Shown here one piece after another: positions 1,396 to 37,973 of a stretch of DNA of 39,758 bases. Where the stretch lies: positions 1 through 39,758 of IMG/VR virus record IMGVR_UViG_3300025141_000260; one strand, written 5' to 3'. The position numbers were made by a program, and so were the translations under genes. Each line of letters starts with the position of its first letter. Position 1 is the first letter of the stretch. The notes beneath the pieces were generated by a model, which saw only the letters and a list, made by a program, of their open reading frames with translations, did not search any database and had not been told where the DNA came from. The DNA comes from a virus.

Positions 1396-2283
1396 CTAGG
1401 CCGGTATTGGGGTGGGCACTATCTGCTCAAACGCTCCAGGTCTATTCAGGTTGAACGGCTCGATCGTTACTGCCTTCTCCATCTCCCTACGGTGACGCTC
1501 CCCCGTAGCGCGGTAGACAGGATCGATACGAGCAACATCGACATCCCAAGGAGCCAGATAGCAACGGCACCGAGGATGAATAGGCACTGTAATAGAACTG
1601 CGCTCATAAATCTTGCCGCCCCGTGGAGCGCAAGTCGGACACGCACGATCATCGGCAGTTGCGTAGTACAGAACCTTGTTGATCCCTTGATTGGCGTAGT
1701 AGTTATTGCTGGCACTGTTATATGCACGGAGACTCTCTGTCCTCACGATGCACGCACTTCTTGACTTAACCACGCCTAACCGCTTACGCATATCGCTCAC
1801 CATCGAATCAATAGAACGGCCCTCCGCAATCCCTTGCGCTATCAGGTTGGAGCTAGTTTCCGCGAATTTCTCTCCGTGTTTTCGTAGGTAACCGTGTGAC
1901 TGTTTCACCGCCGCAGTTACGGCCTCTAAAGGGATCGATACGTCAATACGGGGCCACTTGGGTGCCATTTCATGCATTAAGGCATCCGCGACGTACTGCC
2001 CCGAGCTCGTTGAACTGGTGATTAAACGCTCCAGCAGTCGGTCATAAAGATCTGCCTTATTGGGGTTGACCGCTGGGATCAACTTGCGTAACTCCTGCAA
2101 CAACAACATGTTGCGCTCAATCGAGGATGCATTGCCGCTTATGCGCAGCTCCGCCCTGATGCGTCGTACCAGACCAGTGAACGAAGTATCAAGAATGCGG
2201 TTCAGGCGTTTGATGATCACGTCCTCCTCTGTGCGGAGGAGCTTGTTGTATTCCTCGACGATCCCGAATTCAGCCTGTGGCAT
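1396..2283 (-). CDS. MuF-type phage head morphogenesis protein (SPP1 gp7-like)
   Basis: This 295-residue protein belongs to the Mu F/SPP1 gp7 minor head protein group, which sits with the portal and may enter the cell with DNA. The C-terminal half has the family hallmark: an arginine-rich RTESLRAYN segment, then D(D)RACPTCAPRGG and about 20 residues later HPRCRCYL, a Cys/His array near residues 212-240. It starts at ATG 2283, overlapping the end of the giant protein gene by 14 nt, so the two are likely translationally coupled. It lies downstream of portal in the canonical terS-terL-portal-MuF order. In other phages MuF domains are often tied to toxin or effector domains. Here such domains are in the adjacent gene. 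Confidence 0.88.
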   Translation of the reverse strand: MPQAEFGIVEEYNKLLRTEEDVIIKRLNRILDTSFTGLVRRIRAELRISGNASSIERNMLLLQELRKLIPAVNPNKADLYDRLLERLITSSTSSGQYVADALMHEMAPKWPRIDVSIPLEAVTAAVKQSHGYLRKHGEKFAETSSNLIAQGIAEGRSIDSMVSDMRKRLGVVKSRSACIVRTESLRAYNSASNNYYANQGINKVLYYATADDRACPTCAPRGGKIYERSSITVPIHPRCRCYLAPWDVDVARIDPVYRATGERHRREMEKAVTIEPFNLNRPGAFEQIVPTPIPA

Positions 2284-5200
2284 CTGCTTCCTTCAGTTCT
2301 GCTTGCTTAGCCTTCGCCATCATTCCATTCAATACCATCAGATAACGCTTGACACGAGATACCGCCTCAATACCACTGTTAGCTCCTTCGATGACTTCCT
2401 TGGGTGAAATCAAACCGATCTCGGGGATGTCTATCGCGTCGGATCTCCCTTTGGATGAAAGGAGCCAGTCCCATGAACTGGCAGAACTAGAAGAGGGGTC
2501 ACCCTTGGCAAACTCACGAGCAACGTCCCGTGCGCTTGCTTCGCCTGGGAAATAGACCTCTCTCGCACGAGGTCTCATGATTTTCACATACGTTTTAGTA
2601 ACAGCGGTCAGTCTGTCTGTTGCGCGTGATCGTGGAACATCACCCACAAGCGCCCTAGCCCAATGTTCGCAGTTATTAGTGAATACGTTGTACTTAATAG
2701 GTCTTCCCCACAGGGCTTCAGTACGGTTCAATAACTCATCTTGATTGTATTTAATAGGAGATCTATAAGCCTTTGGAACCCTGCGGAAGGCGGATGCAGC
2801 ACTCAAATCTGCGCCAGGGCCATACTCCTCAGCCCACATTGAACCAGATCTAGTTTTGGACACCGCCCTGCCAAAACTGATGAACGTATGCGCAGTTACA
2901 TCACTATCGGGTGAACGCTTAGTTTTGCCCGCATACACCGCAAAGTGCCCACCTTGACTTCTAGGACTCCTCTCATACACTATCTCTCCGACTTTCCATC
3001 CTTCTTTTTGGACAAGATCATCGTAATAACGACCATACACTTCCTGATTAGGTACTCCTGATAGACCGTTCTCTCGTCTATAACGAGTCATTACTTGCTT
3101 AAAGGATCGTGTTGCTGGTAGGCCCATTCCAGTTTTTAGCTGATGGGCATCCCACGCAACTGCTATTGCCCCACTGGCCGCACCTAAAGCCAATGCTGCA
3201 GCGGCAATCTTGATGTACTTACGCTTTGATGATGGTGGGGCTTCATCGGAAGCGTTAGCTGTTTGCCCTCCCTTAGAGCAGGTGTATGTCTTCGTGATAT
3301 AACTACCGCCGCACTTTTTTCCTTTGCTGCGCTTTTCTAGATCCTCCCGCACTTGCTTATATGACCGTGCTCGGGGGGTTAATTCTTCGGCATCACCTCT
3401 TGGTTTCTTGGGCTTTTCTTCCTTAGGTTCAGACTCCAACGCTTTAGCAGTAACCCTGGATGCCTCGATCCATTGCAGCGCTATGGCTAGCTGCGGTTCG
3501 GACATGCGAGCACCGTTCTCGGTGAACGTGCTCATTGCGGCCTTCATATTACCTGTAGAAGCTGCCTTCTGAAGGTCAGCAAACACTGCTGCTAATGCAG
3601 TCTCAGCATCTCTACGCTTCTCGTAGGGATCAAAAGTGCCAAAACCTGCGTAACCCTGCTTCTGAATCATATCTTTCATAGGTATAGGGTTTTTCTTGAC
3701 TGGTTTAGCCAAAGAATCTTCAAAGGTCTGCTTCGTCCATTCGTAAGCAACAGGGAAGTCCTTCTTCATCTGCTTCCCACTTAGGGAATACATGGCGAAG
3801 TTTTCAGCAAACGTCTCTAGGCGATTACCTTGACTGTAATAATCGGTTTTCGTAACCTTCTTTGGGTCTCGGCGTATATCGGTTTGACCGTAGATACCTA
3901 CAGACTTACGAAGCTCACGTTCCAGTGCGTCACCCTGATAGCTTTTACCTCCAACGACCACACGCGATGGTGTCTTAAAATCTCCTCTGTAATGAATCGC
4001 ATGTCCTAATTCATGCACCTTGATATAGGTTCCATAGCTGTTGTTTAGTTCCTCTTTCCCAGCGAAAGAAGCAACTGGACCCCAATTATCTTGTAGTGCT
4101 TTCATATTTGTCTTGGAAATATTACGTGCATCTTGCTGTTCAGGTGTTTTGGCTTTCCTATCAGACATGTAGCCACGCATCGCACCACCCATTGCTTGGT
4201 AGTCCTTATCCGTCATGCCTTGTTTCGTGAGGTCTGTCGCTTGTAAGCGGTTTGGCTTACCTGTATCGAAATAGCCCTTTACTCCTCCTAAGGAGACCTT
4301 TATGCCCACTCGCTGTTGATCTATCCCTGCTTCTTCCACGAATTCAGCAAATTTCTTGACCGTCTCAGGTTCGGCATCAGGCATCTTCTCCAATTTGCGT
4401 ATCTCAGCGGCAAACTGCTTAGGTGACTTCGTTGAATTACGCTCATTCTTTAAAGATAAAACCGACAGTCCTGATATTGCACTGCCATACAACGCTAATG
4501 ACATCCGTGTACTAACGTCCATCCCACCTTTCTTAGAAGTAAGACCGTAAGCCGCTAACGCTGCACCACCTCCTACAGCGGCTGTCCTTAAGGCAATACT
4601 GCTAACCTGCCGAGCTCGGTAAGCAGCACTCCTTTCTCCCTTCTTAGTCTTACCAATAGTGCATTCGTGAGATTTGGCAATGTGGCTCTCACCGCACTTT
4701 TTCCCTTTTCCCTCCTTCTCTAAATCCTCCCGTGTCTGGACATACGCCGCAACCCGAGGTGGATGCGCTGCTGAGTCGCCTCTCTCGGATTTGGCGATCC
4801 GCATGGCTTGCTCCATCGTCATATTCTCATTACCTTTTCTGCCCATGATCGAGCGGGCAAGATTGCTGAGGTTGGATTGCGCACCAGCTCCCTTACTACT
4901 CCTTTTACCTGTACGACTGAAGCTCGGTGTTGCACTAGATGACGTTGGACTAAAGCGTGCGCGGATCCCGCCTTGGGTTTCCAATGTTTTCAGTGTTTCT
5001 TCCGGGCTCGTTGGGGCTTTGCCTGCATTCAGCTGTGTTGCCACACGCGCTGCCATTCCACGAGTCACCTCAATGGGTTTGGTGTCCTGCGCCACCTTCC
5101 TTGCGTGGGTAGCCCTCGTATAAAGCTCCGCATGTTCAGGGCTGATGATTCGTCCTGCACCGACCTTTGTACCAGTGCCGCGATTCTGTTTCATCAGGAA

Positions 5201-6541
5201 GGTCGCAAAACCTACCTGGCTCTCATCTCTTGGTGAATCCCCGAAGTTTGACTTGCGACGTAACCCTGTGTTCAGCGTGGATATGTGATCATTCACTTGA
5301 TACTCGGTCTGCGCGATCAGACCTTTAGCCAAGTTGTTGGTCGTTCCTATGTTCCCGTCCGATTTAAGAAGTTGAATGGAGAATTGACGCGCTGCGCTGC
5401 GTTCTCTCTTCGAGGCTCCCTTCATACTCTTATCCAGAGTCGTGTCTATCACTGCTTTTGTATAGGCAGCAGCATCCATGCCGCGTTGCGCCATGTCTTT
5501 CTTCATTGCACCTGCAACGTCCTGTAACTTCGTGGAAAGGTGCCCAGTCACTGCTTGACGACGTTGGAAAGGCGATGTTCCAACAGCCGATAATCCCTCG
5601 GGACTCAAACGCCACTGTTTTGTTATCAGCGCGTTAGTCGCATCTGGGGCGAAAACACTGTTGCCCGTCTTTTTGTCCTTCGCACTGAAGATAATGGCGG
5701 CTCCTTCATTCCTGAAGTCCGTCAGGCTTGACGGTGCCTTGTTTGATTTTCCAGCCACAAACTCGTCGTACTCCACTAACGCACCTGATCCCGTAAATGG
5801 GTTACTTCGTAAACCACCTACCAGTCGTGAGACTCTGCCAGGAGTTGTGGGGTTGGCAATTGTTAATGCCCTTGCTTGCTGTTGCAGCTTTGTCCCGCGT
5901 ATTTGCTGAATCCCGAGACCACTGATCGCACTGAAGCCAGCCGCTCTGACCCTCTCCCTGTTGGCACCGACAAATGGCACACGATCCATAACAGAGCCGT
6001 AAGCGCCCTTGACCGCCATATCAGCGCTACGACCCCAGCCGCTCCTGTAGCCAGGGAAAATCTTCTTTGCTGTGAAGTGTGCCCCAACAGTCAATAAACC
6101 GACCGAGACAACTCCAGCAACTGCTGAACTACGACTTTCTAACTTGCGGCGCAATTTCTTCTTCTCCTCCAGATTGTCACCTGGAGAAAGCTTGACCACA
6201 CCTCGTATGACAGAGCTCCGTCCTCGCTCAAACTTCGCCGGGTCGGCCTGAACCACACCTCCAGCAATGTCCTTCGCTCCTCGTTGAATACTGGCAATAC
6301 CAGCAGACGGATCTTGCCTGTGGGTACGCAATTCACTGTTTGTGCCCTGGCCTGTTAGGCGGCAATCCCAGCTCGGGGGGATGCAACGACCGCCGCACTT
6401 CTTATTGGGCGGAGTACAAGTTACTTTCCGCTTCGTCTTGCCAGTACGTGTTGAAAGCTTGCGGCCTGTAGGAGCATCAATACGATCTTTCTCAGCCAGG
6501 TAAGTCGCCGCTCTAATGGTGTCTGAAGTTGGCTGTGTCAT
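2270..6541 (-). CDS. Giant 1423-aa multi-module virion-region protein: three KKCG modules, zincin and LRAT-like domains
   Basis: The start is ATG 6541, overlapping the portal stop as TAATG; an upstream TTG is less likely. Three modules each begin with a KKCG...C motif (about residues 44, 612 and 1072). Motifs 2 and 3 are preceded by a REDLEK/KGKKCG linker. A hydrophobic, membrane-like stretch follows each motif. Module 2 has HELGH at about residue 842 with a downstream ETFAENF Glu near 910, typical of a zinc metallopeptidase. Module 3 has GGHFAVYAG near 1197 and NNCEHWA near 1289, the His and NCEHW signature of LRAT/NlpC-P60-type enzymes. Module 1 (about 200-560) is unrecognised. Its place between portal and MuF suggests a virion-borne, possibly injected or processed, multi-effector protein. 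The domain calls are from motifs, and virion location is inference. Confidence 0.85.
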   Translation of the reverse strand: MTQPTSDTIRAATYLAEKDRIDAPTGRKLSTRTGKTKRKVTCTPPNKKCGGRCIPPSWDCRLTGQGTNSELRTHRQDPSAGIASIQRGAKDIAGGVVQADPAKFERGRSSVIRGVVKLSPGDNLEEKKKLRRKLESRSSAVAGVVSVGLLTVGAHFTAKKIFPGYRSGWGRSADMAVKGAYGSVMDRVPFVGANRERVRAAGFSAISGLGIQQIRGTKLQQQARALTIANPTTPGRVSRLVGGLRSNPFTGSGALVEYDEFVAGKSNKAPSSLTDFRNEGAAIIFSAKDKKTGNSVFAPDATNALITKQWRLSPEGLSAVGTSPFQRRQAVTGHLSTKLQDVAGAMKKDMAQRGMDAAAYTKAVIDTTLDKSMKGASKRERSAARQFSIQLLKSDGNIGTTNNLAKGLIAQTEYQVNDHISTLNTGLRRKSNFGDSPRDESQVGFATFLMKQNRGTGTKVGAGRIISPEHAELYTRATHARKVAQDTKPIEVTRGMAARVATQLNAGKAPTSPEETLKTLETQGGIRARFSPTSSSATPSFSRTGKRSSKGAGAQSNLSNLARSIMGRKGNENMTMEQAMRIAKSERGDSAAHPPRVAAYVQTREDLEKEGKGKKCGESHIAKSHECTIGKTKKGERSAAYRARQVSSIALRTAAVGGGAALAAYGLTSKKGGMDVSTRMSLALYGSAISGLSVLSLKNERNSTKSPKQFAAEIRKLEKMPDAEPETVKKFAEFVEEAGIDQQRVGIKVSLGGVKGYFDTGKPNRLQATDLTKQGMTDKDYQAMGGAMRGYMSDRKAKTPEQQDARNISKTNMKALQDNWGPVASFAGKEELNNSYGTYIKVHELGHAIHYRGDFKTPSRVVVGGKSYQGDALERELRKSVGIYGQTDIRRDPKKVTKTDYYSQGNRLETFAENFAMYSLSGKQMKKDFPVAYEWTKQTFEDSLAKPVKKNPIPMKDMIQKQGYAGFGTFDPYEKRRDAETALAAVFADLQKAASTGNMKAAMSTFTENGARMSEPQLAIALQWIEASRVTAKALESEPKEEKPKKPRGDAEELTPRARSYKQVREDLEKRSKGKKCGGSYITKTYTCSKGGQTANASDEAPPSSKRKYIKIAAAALALGAASGAIAVAWDAHQLKTGMGLPATRSFKQVMTRYRRENGLSGVPNQEVYGRYYDDLVQKEGWKVGEIVYERSPRSQGGHFAVYAGKTKRSPDSDVTAHTFISFGRAVSKTRSGSMWAEEYGPGADLSAASAFRRVPKAYRSPIKYNQDELLNRTEALWGRPIKYNVFTNNCEHWARALVGDVPRSRATDRLTAVTKTYVKIMRPRAREVYFPGEASARDVAREFAKGDPSSSSASSWDWLLSSKGRSDAIDIPEIGLISPKEVIEGANSGIEAVSRVKRYLMVLNGMMAKAKQAELKEADATG

Positions 6542-8436
6542 TAGTAAGCGTCCCAACCTGCGCGAAGTGCTTCAGTCTCACCGCTCGAAATAGGTGAGAG
6601 TCCTGCCACATTCTGCCTTGGATAAGCCACCGATAAGCCCTGTTTCGCTGCCCGTAGTGAGGCAAAGCCAGCTACGAACGGGCCATCTATGAGTTCACCA
6701 TCGAGATCGAACCGGGCTCGGTACAGCTTTCGGGCTTTCGTCCTATGAGGGCCGAAGATCATCAGTGGTGCTGCAGCTGATGTATCGGTGCGTTGCCCGT
6801 CAGGCCCAACAAGATATCCAATGCTGATTCCGTCGTCAAACTTGTGTGAAACACGGATGCGTAGGCCCTGTGCCTCGTATAACTCAAATGAATCGGTCTT
6901 CTGAGCGTCATCAGGCTTCTGTTTTACAGCGCCGTCGTCAGAGGGCAATTCGCCCTGTGGCTCAGCTTCTTCCTTCGGGGCAGGAGATTGTTCCTGGGAA
7001 TATGCCTGATTCTGAGCCTCATAACCCATTATCTGAGACTGGAACTGCGCATCAGCAGACAACTCCAGCTGCCGGGTGACGGTCTCATTCAATTCGGTCT
7101 CGATGCTGTATTCGGTTGTGCCGAACCGCGCTGTCCTCACTTCGATCGGATTGAGGACGCCGAGCTGAATGTATTGAGCGTCGGTCTGCGCCATCTGCAG
7201 ACGTAAGGCGGCCTTCTCCTGGTCCGTTTGGGTGAATACCGAGGGGAATTCGACTGTCCACGCCTCGGGATTCCTGCCACCCGTGGGGCCGTACTTGCTT
7301 AGTAAGAGGTATTGGAATATTTCAGTAATTGGGGTGCGCAGGTAATTCTCCTGCCACTCCTCAACGATGGATGCCCATACACGCTCCTCATAGCGGCCTT
7401 CCTTACCTAATCCGCCTGGGGACTCACCCATCAAAATCGTGCTAGGCCAGCCAGTTACAGCCTGGAGGTTCTTCACAAAGGGATCCAGCGCACCAGCCAG
7501 GTTGGCGAGATTGCGGTTCAGGAATTCAACCTCCTCCTCGGTATCAATCACCAGACCGCCATACATACTGCGGCTCAGGTTGTTGGCTTCAAGCCGTTTT
7601 TTCAGATCGGCCTCGTTGCCCGCAGCAATTCGCTGGAAAAGGCCAGGAATCTTATGGGTAAAGATGTCTGAGTCCTTAGTAAGGTGCTCTAAACCGCCAA
7701 GTGCAGACTCATAGCGCTTATATGCCTCCCAGAAGGACGCCAGCACCGATTGCCCCCACCCCTTGTTGTTAGAGCGTGAATTCCACGGCAAATACAAGCC
7801 ATCAAAACGTGCCACGCGGCTGTGGTGGATCTTCAGGTTGACGTAGCTTTCCTGCTGATCGGCAGTCAGCCGCTGACTTGTGGTTATTAAGTAATACTCA
7901 GGTTTGGAGTAGTCGGTGAACGTCACATCCATAGGCACCAACTCATAACGAGAAAGCGGGATGTAGTCGTTCACTGCCCTGATCCGACTCACATCGACAG
8001 GCTCCTCAGGTGGTAAACCGTCGTCAATCAGCAGAACTAGCGCTGCTCCGCCATAAAGGCGCTGCAGCTTGACTACCTCAGTCAGTTTGAAGAAAAATTG
8101 GCTGTCCTGGAGATACCGATTGAAACTGTTGATCAGCTCTGCGCTTCTCTGCGGCTCAACATCGCCAGCCAACTTGATTGTGGTCTTGTGTCTCAAGACT
8201 TCGTTGGCCACTGCATCCACATAGCGGCGCGGTAGGCCGTATGAATACAAGCGTTCGAGCGATGTCTGATCCAGTAATGAAGGATTGCCAACTCGGGTAT
8301 AGGCAGATTGATCCTTCGATGTACCCAGCCCAGTTATTACATTGACAAGAGAACCGTCAGAACGGGCCTCAGGAGCATCACTACGCAGCCCAGTCTGGAC
8401 TCCTTCGGAAATTTTTGACACGATCTCTCGAAACAT
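6541..8436 (-). CDS. Phage portal protein (DUF1073-like)
   Basis: This 631-residue protein starts at ATG 8436. The first about 470 residues fit the DUF1073/HI1409-like portal family, which forms the ring at the capsid vertex through which DNA passes. Visible features are the YLQDSQFFFKLTEVVKLQRLYGG segment (split here by family wording, about residues 110-135), LVIDTEEEVEFLNRNLANL near 300, and TGWPSTILMGESPGGLG near 335, the typical portal wing/stem junction. The last about 115 residues form an extra, probably beta-rich domain after a Pro/Glu/Gln-rich linker. It is coupled to the giant gene through TAATG. A 430-bp interval separates it from terL, longer than other spacings in this module. 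Confidence 0.9.
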   Translation of the reverse strand: MFREIVSKISEGVQTGLRSDAPEARSDGSLVNVITGLGTSKDQSAYTRVGNPSLLDQTSLERLYSYGLPRRYVDAVANEVLRHKTTIKLAGDVEPQRSAELINSFNRYLQDSQFFFKLTEVVKLQRLYGGAALVLLIDDGLPPEEPVDVSRIRAVNDYIPLSRYELVPMDVTFTDYSKPEYYLITTSQRLTADQQESYVNLKIHHSRVARFDGLYLPWNSRSNNKGWGQSVLASFWEAYKRYESALGGLEHLTKDSDIFTHKIPGLFQRIAAGNEADLKKRLEANNLSRSMYGGLVIDTEEEVEFLNRNLANLAGALDPFVKNLQAVTGWPSTILMGESPGGLGKEGRYEERVWASIVEEWQENYLRTPITEIFQYLLLSKYGPTGGRNPEAWTVEFPSVFTQTDQEKAALRLQMAQTDAQYIQLGVLNPIEVRTARFGTTEYSIETELNETVTRQLELSADAQFQSQIMGYEAQNQAYSQEQSPAPKEEAEPQGELPSDDGAVKQKPDDAQKTDSFELYEAQGLRIRVSHKFDDGISIGYLVGPDGQRTDTSAAAPLMIFGPHRTKARKLYRARFDLDGELIDGPFVAGFASLRAAKQGLSVAYPRQNVAGLSPISSGETEALRAGWDAY

Positions 8437-14324: not shown

Positions 14325-15404
14325 TCAAACAGCTGCAAGGCACGCAGTCTTGGCTGCCTCAATGTTGCGACCTGCTTCGCCACCCCAGAGTCGCTCAAGG
14401 TTGGCTCTTGCTCGGTCTGCCTCATTGCCAGTGCGACGGCGACCTCTGTCGTGTGTCTCGTATTGGGTAATGGCGTTGTATAAGCCAAAAACGCTGCCCT
14501 TCAGATGCTCGGTGCCTATCCCGGTGCCACCGCCGTAGTGGCTCTTGATCAGGGCGTGCTCTGCCAGATCGGTGATCACTCGCTGGCGTTTCTCGCCACT
14601 AGAACGATCTTTTACAGGTACAGAAAGCTTGTTGGCATACGTCCTTTCCAGAATTGCCTTGGCGTTCTCCTCGGTGAGCGGGGTCTGCACCATTGCTCGG
14701 AAACTCTGAATGTCTGCGTCGAACGTCCGGCGGAACACGTCGATCCGTCCTGGCAGCTCATGGGCAAAATCCCTGACGCCACTGGTGTGGCGCATCGTTA
14801 GGCCACGGCCATCTCGGCAGGCTTTACGTGCCGCGCTCGAAAGTGAACTCAACTGGTTGGCACACGTCAACCGCACATCTGTAAAGAATGCGCCATAGGC
14901 GGCGCTGCCGTCATGACTGTTGAAAATGTGCAGGTAACGCCTGATGCGGTCGCCGGGTAATACCTCCTGCTCGGTGTCGATTGAGCAGGTGACGTATGTT
15001 TTTGCGCCGCCACGGATGCTCAGCACGTTCTCGATCGTGACGGTGCTCCCTAGGGAGTCCACCACGTTAATAAGATCCTGCTGTTGGATTGGCTCATACG
15101 CTGAGCCGTGGATACCAAGCGGGTGGTCGGTATCTGATCGGACGATGACGGTCTTGTCAGGGAGGATCACGGGGCCGTCTAAACCCTCGTAAAACGCATT
15201 GCGCTTCTCGGCTGTCCAATCCAAGCCAGCAATGGCAAATGCCTCGCTAGCTGAGACACGACGGTCGAATGATTCGCCGAGAGATTGGTAGACCGGCTGG
15301 GTTTCGTAGCCGACCTCCTTGTATTTGCCATAAACCTGCACGTTCTGGGTGTTGGCGAATTGGGCTGACACTGAATTTGTCAGCGTCGGAAAAAGGGAAG
15401 TCAT
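14325..15404 (-). CDS. DUF932 phage/plasmid-like protein
   Basis: This 359-residue protein starts at ATG 15404. It shows the DUF932 layout: a short N-terminal region, the AGLDWTAEKRNAFYE segment near 58, DHPLGIHGSAYEPIQQQDLINVVD near 90-115 (family core), an IRGGAKTYVTCSI beta unit, then HDGSAAYGAFFTDVRLTCANQL near 170-190 and a long helical C-terminus. DUF932 proteins are common in phages and plasmids. Their biochemical role is unsettled, and a nucleic-acid-processing role is often guessed. It is the longest gene in the accessory block and has a CATCCACAC/CTCTCTCT leader element before its start. Confidence 0.85.
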   Translation of the reverse strand: MTSLFPTLTNSVSAQFANTQNVQVYGKYKEVGYETQPVYQSLGESFDRRVSASEAFAIAGLDWTAEKRNAFYEGLDGPVILPDKTVIVRSDTDHPLGIHGSAYEPIQQQDLINVVDSLGSTVTIENVLSIRGGAKTYVTCSIDTEQEVLPGDRIRRYLHIFNSHDGSAAYGAFFTDVRLTCANQLSSLSSAARKACRDGRGLTMRHTSGVRDFAHELPGRIDVFRRTFDADIQSFRAMVQTPLTEENAKAILERTYANKLSVPVKDRSSGEKRQRVITDLAEHALIKSHYGGGTGIGTEHLKGSVFGLYNAITQYETHDRGRRRTGNEADRARANLERLWGGEAGRNIEAAKTACLAAV

Positions 15405-20959: not shown

Positions 20960-20996
20960 AGAGAACCTCTATAAGGTTTAAAGGGAGAGAATCCCT
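20960..20996 (-). repeat. 37-bp leader repeat
   Basis: This segment matches 20262-20298 with one mismatch. On the minus strand it holds small stems (GGGA...TCCC; AACCT-TATAG-AGGTT) and an AGAGG that can act as RBS directly before the ATG. Confidence 0.8.
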
Positions 20997-20997
20997 C

Positions 20998-21032
20998 AAA
21001 TAAACAACCCCCACTGGCAGTGCCAATGGGGG
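20998..21032 (-). terminator. Minus-strand intrinsic terminator of the candidate ncRNA
   Basis: CCCCCA at 21008-21013 pairs with TGGGGG at 21027-21032, with an inner TGG/CCA. On the minus strand the hairpin is followed by TTGTTTATTT (21007 down to 20998). It lies just before the leader of the small-gene operon. Confidence 0.7.
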
Positions 21033-21594
21033 AATGTCTGTTAGAGAAAATCATTGCCAGCAGAGCCGTTTGCTGGGCTTAGGTTGCAGAGCCTGGGGTG
21101 ACAGGGTTGCGATATTCAGGGCATACCTGTGATTTACACCGGAGTCAGCTCGTACAAGGGTTAGGACATTACTGTCCGCACACACCTTGCACCGGGATCA
21201 CTGGATCGATCACCCGTGCTGCTGCCGTCACGTCACAAGCAGCTTCCCTCCCACTCCCAGGTCGGTCAGGGCCACGGTGCCGATCCCTCGACACTCCTTC
21301 CTATAACAGGAGGGTGGCTTGTCCCTCTGGTGGTGCTCCCGTAGCACGACATACTCGTCACCCCCTGGTGGAGGCATCCCTAGCTTGACGGTTCAGAAGA
21401 ACCGCGAGGGATCATTGTCCGACCGGAATCTGGAAGATTCCTAGCGCCGCTGCCGGGTGCTGTGCTGAAGCTACTAACGCGCGTTGCGCTTTCACGGCTC
21501 AGCCCGCAGGATTGTTGTTGAGTCGCGCTTTACTGACTGCGCTGTTTTAATAGTTGATCGAGTTTGCTCCTGTTTGAACTTGTGCCAATACTGG

Positions 21595-21623
21595 ATCATA
21601 TCGGCGGGTTTGTCAAGTATCAA
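21595..21623 (-). promoter_or_regulatory. Second minus-strand promoter inside the ncRNA segment
   Basis: TTGATA (21623-21618), a 17-bp spacer and TATGAT (21600-21595) form a good sigma-70-type promoter predicting a start near 21588. The -35 overlaps an AGTATC-ATTT-GATACT inverted repeat. It could be an internal start or a chance match within a structured RNA. Confidence 0.4.
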
Positions 21624-21798
21624 ATGATACTCGGTGTGACTGGCTGCTTGTGGAGCGTTGCTCCTTTCGCCAGTGATTACACTATGATCGGTATCGGCTG
21701 AAAAAGCAATGAGTCAAAATACTCATAAACAGAATCAGCAGCGATAGCAGCGGCGCGCGGTGAGATAATAGAACCGCACGCGCGCGAGTGCATAACCC

Positions 21799-21827
21799 AT
21801 TATACACCCTATCGGCGCAGCTGTCAA
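21799..21827 (-). promoter_or_regulatory. Perfect consensus minus-strand promoter (TTGACA-17-TATAAT)
   Basis: On the minus strand TTGACA (21827-21822), 17 bp and TATAAT (21804-21799) match the primary-sigma consensus exactly, with TSS about 21792. It faces the gene-free segment. An 8-bp inverted repeat lies just upstream at 21837-21861. Confidence 0.75.
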
Positions 21828-21836
21828 CATCAGGGG

Positions 21837-21861
21837 GTTCTGTATCACCACGCTACAGAAC
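21837..21861. repeat. 8-bp inverted repeat upstream of the ncRNA promoter
   Basis: GTTCTGTA at 21837-21844 and TACAGAAC at 21854-21861 are perfect arms with a 9-nt loop. It sits 10 bp upstream of the -35 box and downstream of the sigma gene. It may be an operator or the sigma transcript's 3' hairpin; no T-run follows. Confidence 0.65.
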
Positions 21862-21920
21862 TACGGAGAGGGGCTAAAACACTTTACTGGCCTAGAAAAA
21901 TGTAATATATATGTCTTGGA

Positions 21921-22814
21921 TCAGAGCGACACTGCAGGTGATCTCTGAATCCGCAATCGTAGCTTTCTGAGTATTTTGAGATGTGTCTGATTGATCGCTT
22001 GGCTGCTCCTACCGAGCTCTTTACCTAGTTGGTTGAAAGTCTTGCCATCATCGAAGACTGATGTCACTATATAACGCTCCGCTTCTGTTAAATGACACAT
22101 CGCATGTACTACTTGCTCTGTGTGAAAATGGCGGTCTAGGTATTTGTCCGGGTTGTTGTCTGGTGTTGTATTAGAATCGACAATCAGCTCATACCGTGAA
22201 GTGTCTCCAGCACTAACAGCACCGCCATAATCACCCAACACACGATCCAGTGATGAACAACGTGTAAGGTCATATGCAGCAAGATGTGACGCTACCTTCT
22301 CTTTCTTTATGTCTAGGTGTATTGCGATCTCGGTATGAGTGGGGGTTAGTCCCGTGGCGATCTCGTGCCTCTCGATATAACGGCGGATCTTGCTGATGAT
22401 CTCGTAGGTGTTGCTCGGTATGCGGATCGTCCTCGATTGGCTATAGATGGCGCGGGTTATGCCCTGGCGGATCCACCAATACACATAGGTAGACACCTGA
22501 TAGCCACGGGTTGGGTCGAACAATTCCATCCCCCGCATCAATCCGATGTTCCCCTCTTGTATTAGGTCACAGATGTCCATCCCACGGTTCATGTATTTCT
22601 TCGCGATCGACACCACCAGACGCAGGTTGGTGCGGACCATTACGTCCATTGAGCGGCGGCCACTCTTTTGGACCTTCATTGGGGCTCCCGCCTTACCGTG
22701 CTCGTGGTTCACCCAAGCGTGGATTCGCTGGCAGTGACGGAGCTGAGCTTCCTTCGTTAAGACAGGATGCCGCCCGATTTCGGTCAGATATACATGTAGA
22801 TCAGAACCGGCCAT
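21921..22814 (-). CDS. Phage-encoded primary-type sigma factor (cyanobacterial group 1/2-like)
   Basis: This 297-residue RNA polymerase sigma subunit starts at ATG 22814. Region 1.2 begins at DLHVYLTEIGRHPVLT. Region 2 holds RTNLRLVVSIAKKYMNRGMDICDLIQEGNIGLMRG (core binding, 2.2) and then FDPTRGYQVSTYVYWWIRQGITRAI (-10 recognition, 2.4). Region 3 is present (TRTIRIPSNTYE-like segment and ATGLTPTHTEIAIHL). Region 4 ends in a helix-turn-helix (FNQLGKELGRSSQAINQTHLKILRKLR). Region 1.1 is absent. It should redirect host polymerase. It is followed on the same strand by the consensus promoter and ncRNA. Sigma genes of this host-like type are rare in phages without a T4-type genome. Confidence 0.93.
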   Translation of the reverse strand: MAGSDLHVYLTEIGRHPVLTKEAQLRHCQRIHAWVNHEHGKAGAPMKVQKSGRRSMDVMVRTNLRLVVSIAKKYMNRGMDICDLIQEGNIGLMRGMELFDPTRGYQVSTYVYWWIRQGITRAIYSQSRTIRIPSNTYEIISKIRRYIERHEIATGLTPTHTEIAIHLDIKKEKVASHLAAYDLTRCSSLDRVLGDYGGAVSAGDTSRYELIVDSNTTPDNNPDKYLDRHFHTEQVVHAMCHLTEAERYIVTSVFDDGKTFNQLGKELGRSSQAINQTHLKILRKLRLRIQRSPAVSL

Positions 22815-36603: not shown

Positions 36604-36660
36604 TTCGTAAGAGAGCTAAGACGTTGACCGTCGTTGTTATGGTCATCATACCTAGCTCTC

Positions 36661-36666
36661 TATAAT
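36661..36666 (+). promoter_or_regulatory. Plus-strand -10 box abutting the lysis gene start
   Basis: TATAAT at 36661-36666 is only 7 bp before ATG 36673. TTATGG lies 18 bp upstream as a weak -35. Transcription would start about at the ATG, implying a leaderless mRNA unless another promoter is used. Confidence 0.45.
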
Positions 36667-36672
36667 TCGAGT

Positions 36673-37365
36673 ATGAAATGGACGAGTATGGGCATTCAAC
36701 TAGAGCCATTTTTTCGCTACTACAAGGGCAACCCAGAAGCACCTCATCAGGTAGAAGCGGTGCGGATGCTGGAGGAACTAATGCCGTCCTCGTTGTTATC
36801 TGTAAATGCTGCTTGGGTTAAGAAATACCGAGAATCAGTCCCTGATAAAGTGCTGGACGTTAAGTATTTCTATCAGACCGATAATGGGCCGACTGGGTGG
36901 CGACAGTGTCAAACCAGCTCGATTGCGATGTGTCTGAATTTTCTTGGGGTGAACGGTATTGACGATGATTTGGATTATCTGAGGGTGGTTCAGAAATACG
37001 GTGATACCACATTGCAATCATCACACCAGCAGGCCCTGAGGGAGTTGCGGGTGGATGGGCGGTTTAGGACCGATCTCGGGAAAGCTGATTTGATTAGTGA
37101 AATCGAGCACGGATGCCCCTGTGCGATTGGGATCTTGCATCACGGCTCGTTAGCGAATGGCCCCCGTGGCGGTGGGCATTACATAACTTTACGGGGCGTG
37201 ACCGATACAGCGGCGCTTGTTCACGACCCGTTTGGATCCCTTGATCTTGAGCGGGGGGTCTGGCTGGGGACTGGTCCCGAGGACGGGAAAGACGAAATCT
37301 ATGCCTGGAATAATCTGTTGCCTCGATTTGATATCGGTGGTGGCTGGGGTTGGGTGTTCAGCTGA
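36673..37365 (+). CDS. C39-like cysteine peptidase, probable lysis or cell-wall enzyme
   Basis: The start is ATG 36673. After a 50-residue N-terminal unit (IQLEPFFRYYKG...WVKKYRE), the peptidase part has GWRQCQTSSIAMCLNFLG near residue 80 (Cys nucleophile). GGGHYITLRGV near 180 gives the His, and VHDPFGS near 195 the Asp/Asn. This is the papain-like C39 layout. Its N-terminal unit resembles that of the following endolysin. Its stop overlaps the endolysin ATG as TGATG. It therefore probably acts on the envelope rather than on a bacteriocin leader. Confidence 0.82.
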   Translation: MKWTSMGIQLEPFFRYYKGNPEAPHQVEAVRMLEELMPSSLLSVNAAWVKKYRESVPDKVLDVKYFYQTDNGPTGWRQCQTSSIAMCLNFLGVNGIDDDLDYLRVVQKYGDTTLQSSHQQALRELRVDGRFRTDLGKADLISEIEHGCPCAIGILHHGSLANGPRGGGHYITLRGVTDTAALVHDPFGSLDLERGVWLGTGPEDGKDEIYAWNNLLPRFDIGGGWGWVFS

Positions 37366-37973
37366 TGTCCACACCAATTCAGCTAAAAGATGCAGCCTTC
37401 TACTACAGGGAACAGGATTGGCAGGCACATGCCTGGGATTGGTTGCAAGGGCAGCTCCATCCTGATCTGGTAGAGGAATTTGCTTGGCGATATCGCAGTG
37501 GGCCAGAGGAGTCACCCGTTTTGGAGCAAGAAATGAGCATGTCCGATTCGGGTATCGCACTTGTCAAGAGATTTGAGGGGCTCAGACTTGACGCATATCC
37601 TGATCCGGGTACTGGTGGCGAGCCCATCACGATAGGAATAGGTCACACTGGCGGAGTGAAAATGGGTGATCGGATCACAGAAGAGCAGGCACTGGCTTAC
37701 CTAAAATCCGATCTCGGTAAATTTGAGGCTGCGATTACTGATTTGATCACGCCAAACCTCACGCAGGGCGAATTCGATGCCCTGGTTAGTTGGTGCTTCA
37801 ATGTGGGCGAAGGAGCCGTTGCTGATTCGACGCTGCGGCGGCGGCTCAATGCCGGGGAAAATAAAAAGATCGTGCTCAAAGAAGAGCTGCCTCGCTGGGT
37901 AAATGGAGGCAGCGGTCGGATGCTCGGCCTAGTTCGTAGGAGGCAAGCTGAAATTGCTCACGCTTATGCCTGA
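37365..37973 (+). CDS. Endolysin: N-terminal unit plus GH24 lysozyme
   Basis: ATG 37365 (STPIQLKDAAFYYREQDW) is chosen from the TGATG overlap. Residues 1-55 form an N-terminal unit similar to that of the C39-like protein. From about 58 the GH24 (phage-type lysozyme) domain has KRFEGLRLDAYPDP (catalytic Glu) and TIGIGHTGG. LISWC-type FNVGEGA and the basic C-terminus follow. It hydrolyses peptidoglycan glycan strands for host lysis. The domain is complete (about 145 residues). Confidence 0.93.
   Translation: MSTPIQLKDAAFYYREQDWQAHAWDWLQGQLHPDLVEEFAWRYRSGPEESPVLEQEMSMSDSGIALVKRFEGLRLDAYPDPGTGGEPITIGIGHTGGVKMGDRITEEQALAYLKSDLGKFEAAITDLITPNLTQGEFDALVSWCFNVGEGAVADSTLRRRLNAGENKKIVLKEELPRWVNGGSGRMLGLVRRRQAEIAHAYA

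Follow-up and report, generated by a model that had tools for sequence, protein, structure and literature searches.

A candidate gene for a large, modular non-coding RNA downstream of a sigma-factor gene in uncultured phages

To our knowledge, only a few giant, ornate phage RNAs are known, and their function is open. GOLLD, a large structured RNA that often exceeds 800 nt, occurs in phages and prophages and has also been encountered in aquatic metagenomes; its 3' part is conserved and its 5' part less so (PMC12286853). ROOL is phage-borne, ~600 nt long and elaborately folded with pseudoknots; neither RNA has an assigned function, and many loci of both lie near tRNAs, an association that is frequent and, for GOLLD, not absolute (PMC12286853). 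In Vibrio phage ICP1, a ~800-nt ncRNA is produced from a 1-kb ORF-less gap without tRNAs; it has no assigned role and was likened by its authors to GOLLD and ROOL (PMC7567579).

The present analysis concerns a gene-free segment within a 39,758-base IMG/VR virus record, the whole of which is referred to as the window. A first-pass annotation, made from the sequence alone, had proposed an RNA of the GOLLD/ROOL kind or a new class and had failed to match the segment to any known sequence. The second of these proposals has stood, backed by covariation and by the lack of an Rfam match, while membership in GOLLD or ROOL has not. The failure to find a known counterpart was borne out against Rfam 15, in which GOLLD, ROOL, HEARO and OLE gave no match: cmscan returned nothing for the window, for 10 relatives or, at E<=5, for 8 loci. 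The gathering threshold was not reached by RNase P, tmRNA, group I or II introns, HEARO, OLE, 6S or riboswitch models, and the 20-bit matches to RF01998, a group II intron piece, lie below the cut-off. ARAGORN detected no tmRNA in the window. RNase P had been raised as a candidate by AACCCGGCTTA-like stretches and was ruled out by the lack of an Rfam match.

The locus and its genomic setting

The window encodes a portal protein, a terminase, a PD-(D/E)XK superfamily exonuclease, a dNMP kinase, a primase, a family-A DNA polymerase, an endolysin and a sigma70-family factor. The RNA locus lies directly 3' of the sigma-factor gene on the same strand, and the segment end at 21920 simply extends as far as the stop codon of that gene. 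Several relatives measure 60-76 kb, so the window record is probably incomplete. A picocyanobacterial host is likely, as the annotated relatives of the sigma factor and exonuclease include Synechococcus phages. Three other features of the window were noted. Two overlapping ORFs at 36634-37973 (plus strand) match two halves of phrog_3617 and endolysin families, which suggests either that the endolysin gene is split or frameshifted or that the sequence contains an error. A 1428-aa ORF without a PHROG match lies between the portal and minor head genes (2270-6556, minus strand), and a 359-aa phrog_1221 protein of no assigned function is encoded at 14325-15404 (minus strand); the relative L005 has one downstream of its sigma gene.

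The segment was said at first reading to be bracketed by a perfect minus-strand promoter and a terminator hairpin, and both were recovered (Table 1). The promoter P1 matches the consensus at 12 of 12 positions and is the sole promoter-like site of at least 11/12 on either strand of the whole 39.8-kb window, in which rough arithmetic gives ~0.01 such 12/12 matches by chance. The hairpin of the terminator, CCCCCATTGGCACTGCCAGTGGGGG-TTGTTTATTT, is a strong one with an 11-bp stem. The second promoter-like site is overlapped by TTGATA-17-TATGAT at 21623-21595. A start at P1 predicts a transcript of ~790 nt, while the weaker second promoter predicts one of ~580 nt.

Table 1. Features of the RNA locus and of the adjoining sigma-factor gene, in window coordinates
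Feature	Position	Strand	Remarks
Phage sigma70-family factor (upstream gene)	21921..22814	-	Syntenic anchor of the family; phrog_351 E=3.6e-60; Pfam Sigma70_r2
AT-rich element CATATATATTACATTTTTC	21895..21913	-	Directly after the last gene; conserved form in relatives CATATACATTAAATTTTTT
5' module (promoters and GC-rich hairpins)	21522..21828	-	Homologous to the 5' module of relatives
Promoter P1, TTGACA-17-TATAAT	21799..21827	-	Predicted start ~21792; aligns with promoter and 5' GC hairpin of relatives
Second promoter-like site, TTGACA-17-CAGTAT	21588..21617	-	Sits where the family has its third promoter; start predicted at ~21582
RNA core type A, motifs TCGGACAATGATCC, CACCAGAGGGACAAGCCAC, GTGGCCCTGACCGACCTGG	21162..21422	-	Leave-window-out nhmmer E=1.4e-16
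Hairpin Hb, GTGTCGA-GGGA-TCGGCAC	21277..21294	-	Invariant GNRA (GGGA) loop, covarying stem
Helices H3 and H4	21152..21192	-	Both kept in homologues
3' module: CGCAACCC-GGCTCTGC element, hairpin CCAGCA-AACGGCTC-TGCTGG (21076-21057), terminator	20978..21117	-	Leave-window-out nhmmer E=2.4e-9
Intrinsic terminator	20998..21032	-	Homologous terminators in relatives

A family of loci with a common layout

A direct DNA search with the segment (blastn against isolate phages) gave no match, and the exonuclease as a lone protein query retrieved no relatives. Four closer relatives (43-52% identity) were reached through the sigma factor. Three of them contain weak matches at the syntenic place, and one of these three matches both ends of the segment with their order kept. 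An alignment of four exonucleases, combined with patterns from the conserved RNA pieces, uncovered many further loci. After removal of near-duplicates, ~46 of 59 dereplicated sigma-downstream regions from IMG/VR contain an RNA locus with a similar gene-free layout. No RNA locus follows the sigma gene of more distant relatives, and isolate S-CBS3 is without one, its genes lying directly 3' of the sigma gene. No carrier of the relatives' cores was found among the isolate phages of the collection, and a protein search of bacterial genome contigs gave no match. Six matches of the core pattern in bacterial genomes and MAGs, none backed by a profile search, were taken as chance. The literature on cyanophage structured RNAs and on comparable tandem-promoter phage RNAs yielded no description of the family, which, judged by these searches and those of Rfam, is undescribed so far.

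In the family, the last gene is followed in turn by an AT-rich element resembling CATATACATTAAATTTTTT, the promoters, the core and the 3' module, which includes the terminator. As many as three tandem TTGACA-17/18 promoter-like (sigma70-like) sites occupy conserved places ahead of the core, and 49 loci together hold 82 such sites, versus 6.4 in shuffled sequences. The distance from the AT-rich element to the 3' hairpin loop is 830-1016 nt in relatives and ~845 nt in the window. Type A is the core of 16 dereplicated relatives and of the window, and other loci hold different cores. There are two 3' modules, one well conserved and the other present in some members; type-A cores are paired with either, and the core is sometimes the most conserved part. 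At the 3' end of L139 (~3397-3560, minus strand), the 3' module is apparently part-duplicated, with CACAAACCATCTC occurring twice ahead of the terminator.

Membership of the window was assessed with a type-A profile built without it, whose matches in the window are collinear and on the expected minus strand. The starting profile, comprising nine relatives only, already detected the window at 8.7e-6 and 0.0064. The homology of the 5' module is more weakly supported than that of the core and 3' module: leave-window-out nhmmer gave E=1.4e-4 for 21620-21522 and E=0.0014 for 21828-21753, and seed L235 gave no match. In alignments, the 3' module of the window keeps the hairpin and lacks both strands of the pseudoknot found in the family.

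Some pairs among nine A-type relatives have cores that are 92-98% identical beside sigma genes that share only 52-60% identity; in L150 and L147, for example, the values are 98.2% for the core and 59.4% for the sigma gene. To account for such a gap, the core must be under very strong constraint or be exchanged frequently. L108 and L109 share 96% identity across 407 nt at the 5' end and 98.5% across 134 nt of the 3' part, but have different cores between these stretches. Located downstream of the sigma gene (locus 12481 onward), this pair represents a natural cassette swap between near-identical phages, and it favours core exchange as at least part of the explanation.

Coding potential, fold and covariation

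The claim that the segment is free of genes on both strands withstood closer inspection, as it contains short ORFs only. Stops in the sense frames of the core number 5-7 in the window and 2-9 in homologues; no reading frame is conserved, and every sense frame is broken in each core tested. The weak tblastn matches of six-frame peptides coincide at single places in relatives, where several frames and both strands are hit at once, and this frame-independent similarity indicates conservation of nucleotide rather than protein sequence. Coding on either strand was rejected on the grounds of the broken frames and the frame-independent similarity.

Evidence for an RNA fold comes from hairpin Hb: its GGGA tetraloop is invariant, and each of eight lineages has its own stem sequence. 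Compensatory changes occur in 7 of its 7 pairs, with covariation of 0.974 compared to 0.268 +/- 0.086 after shuffling, and 94.6% of cells are paired, a value that falls to 25-47% when the partner strand is slid. These counts were made on ungapped, loop-anchored 18-mers, as MAFFT whole-core alignments shift some stems. Of the 53 paired cells, nine hold G-U pairs, and these would read A-C on the opposite strand; the minus strand is therefore likely to be the functional RNA.

The 8-pair stem enclosing a GNRA-capped hairpin that had been drawn from the single sequence proved to be conserved: H3, GTGCAAGG (21192-21185) paired with CCTTGTAC (21159-21152), surrounds H4, GGACA-GTAA-TGTCC (21177-21164). 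With arms anchored on conserved flanks as for Hb, helix Ha is paired in 35 of 36 cells and H4 in 32 of 32; for H3, the 49 of 54 paired cells are a biased count, its arms having been picked by best pairing. In 13 relatives, the 3' module combines a stem with a pseudoknot (GCGUGN/NCACGC) and with a hairpin whose loop lies around CGGCUC. Pairing there reaches 99.1%, covariation is 0.311 (0.150 shuffled, pseudoknot included), and 24 cells are doubly changed compared to 8.9 in shuffled alignments. The covariation sample consists of a modest number of independent deep lineages.

The 798-nt minus strand has a folding-energy z-score of -6.67 (20 shuffles), and the core and 3' module alone give MFE z-scores of -1.7 to -4.5 in the sense direction, with antisense values sometimes lower. 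Whole-core MFE z-scores are weak evidence, and since MFE is not strand-specific in relatives, the argument rests on covariation. The first-pass annotation had named conserved translation and a lack of covariation as findings that would count against a structured RNA; both were looked for in the homologues, whose helices display compensatory changes and whose sequences display no conserved translation.

Readings of the locus and comparison with described phage RNAs

We consider it probable, at about 70%, that this segment specifies a large, structured, non-coding RNA belonging to a new family, transcribed from promoter to terminator and acting in trans. Its organization from promoter to terminator, with tandem promoters and a conserved fold, suggests an RNA that stands alone and is abundant. 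In the model we propose, the sigma70 host-type polymerase, or polymerase carrying the phage sigma factor encoded upstream, would start at one to three tandem promoters and would stop at the intrinsic terminator to yield an RNA of 580-795 nt. Separate domains would make up its fold: a promoter-proximal 5' domain; an exchangeable core with many covarying helices and hairpins capped by GNRA loops; and a 3' module that contains a hairpin, joined in relatives by a pseudoknot. Action in trans seems most likely, with a stable, abundant, folded RNA serving as a scaffold or binding a host or phage protein partner during take-over of the cell; by analogy with GOLLD and ROOL, which form homo-oligomeric RNA cages, it might perhaps associate with itself. 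The scaffold, protein-binding and self-assembling roles are suggested by this analogy.

Expression of the RNA is probably regulated, as judged from two features of the relatives. GAGACTC repeats (TGAGACTCA-like) occur 83 times where 1.2 are expected (for example in L231, L135 and L206, within 400 nt after the AT-rich element), mostly just 5' of P1 and with a spacing of ~10, 20 or 29 nt; they form a probable operator or activator array. In addition, proteins of 125-147 aa with weak helix-turn-helix matches are encoded between the sigma gene and the RNA (L004:7115-7522, L002:7413-7790, L099:5095-5538, L090:6701-7078), and such a protein could regulate the RNA promoters. In the window, the repeats are absent and no helix-turn-helix-like gene lies between sigma and RNA. 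A more speculative extension, which we regard as possible and hold tentatively, is a giant-RNA cassette system in which fixed promoter and terminator modules carry interchangeable cores; these would recombine between phages independently of the adjacent genes, in the manner of counter-defence or host-take-over parts, and different cores would be directed at different host targets.

A different reading is that the RNA acts in cis as a leader or antiterminator. HK022 put RNA is a structured phage RNA that modifies polymerase; a nascent transcript here might likewise alter polymerase, or sense a signal, and permit read-through into small downstream genes. Same-strand genes do follow the terminator, conserved sequence (GGCTGAGGTGCTTTGCACCTC) extends beyond it, and in L002 and L108 further ORFs separate the gene-free region from the last terminator. 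Against this, the RNA far exceeds known put-type and riboswitch leaders in size, the downstream genes are poorly conserved between the window and relatives, and different cores and two 3' modules fill the one slot, so that we judge a leader unlikely. Origin transcripts that prime DNA synthesis, such as ColE1 RNA II and the T7 primary origin transcript, offer another model, one suggested by the conserved AT-rich element, the tandem promoters and a genome that encodes a family-A DNA polymerase. The AT-rich element, however, lies upstream of the promoters rather than downstream, the cumulative GC-skew curve does not turn at 21 kb, and exchangeable cores are a poor fit to a fixed primer, all of which makes a priming role quite unlikely.

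That the RNA belongs to GOLLD or ROOL as a highly diverged member would accord with the similar size, the phage origin, the apparently conserved 3' and more variable 5' parts and the lack of an assigned function (PMC12286853). Searches of 20 family records at E<=1 argue against it: RF02032 (GOLLD) gave only a 9.6-bit piece (E=0.1, below the cut-off) and RF03087 (ROOL) gave no match, with the caveat that neither model matched the control genomes, so that these negatives come with no positive control. Together with the absence of tRNA genes from the window and from 24 related loci, these results render such a membership very improbable. Finally, the view that the segment is regulatory DNA only, a promoter and operator array whose folds are by-products, finds some basis in the up to three promoters and the GAGACTC array of relatives and is barely credible given compensatory changes with G-U pairs and a pseudoknot 3' of the promoters and the very strong conservation of the presumably transcribed core.

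A stand-alone RNA of this kind would add to the giant phage RNAs a family unrelated to the known ones by all sequence tests made, with dozens of natural variants. Near-identical phages with different cores, as in L108 and L109, and a core far more conserved than the sigma gene provide ready comparisons, and the variants should be useful for cryo-EM structure determination and for expression and deletion studies of giant-RNA roles. In uncultured viral genomes such putative RNAs have escaped annotation, here recurring at one syntenic position across dozens of related phages.

Among described systems, HK022 put is similar as a structured phage RNA upstream of a terminator; the present RNA is much larger and has its own terminator directly after it. 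The ICP1 RNA is alike in its ~800-nt size, its ORF-less gap and the lack of tRNAs, but it belongs to another phage group and sits by a lysis cluster. ROOL (RF03087) shares phage origin, size and, with relatives of the window, pseudoknots; the family differs in having no covariance-model match and no tRNA island, and in adjoining a sigma-factor gene. GOLLD (RF02032) is of the same size class, is likewise a structured RNA and comes from phages, whereas the present loci give no covariance-model match, lack tRNA neighbours and are characterized by tandem promoters, exchangeable cores and two alternative 3' modules. On the best reading of these comparisons, the family would represent large, modular, stand-alone phage RNAs that are kin to GOLLD and ROOL in kind rather than in sequence.
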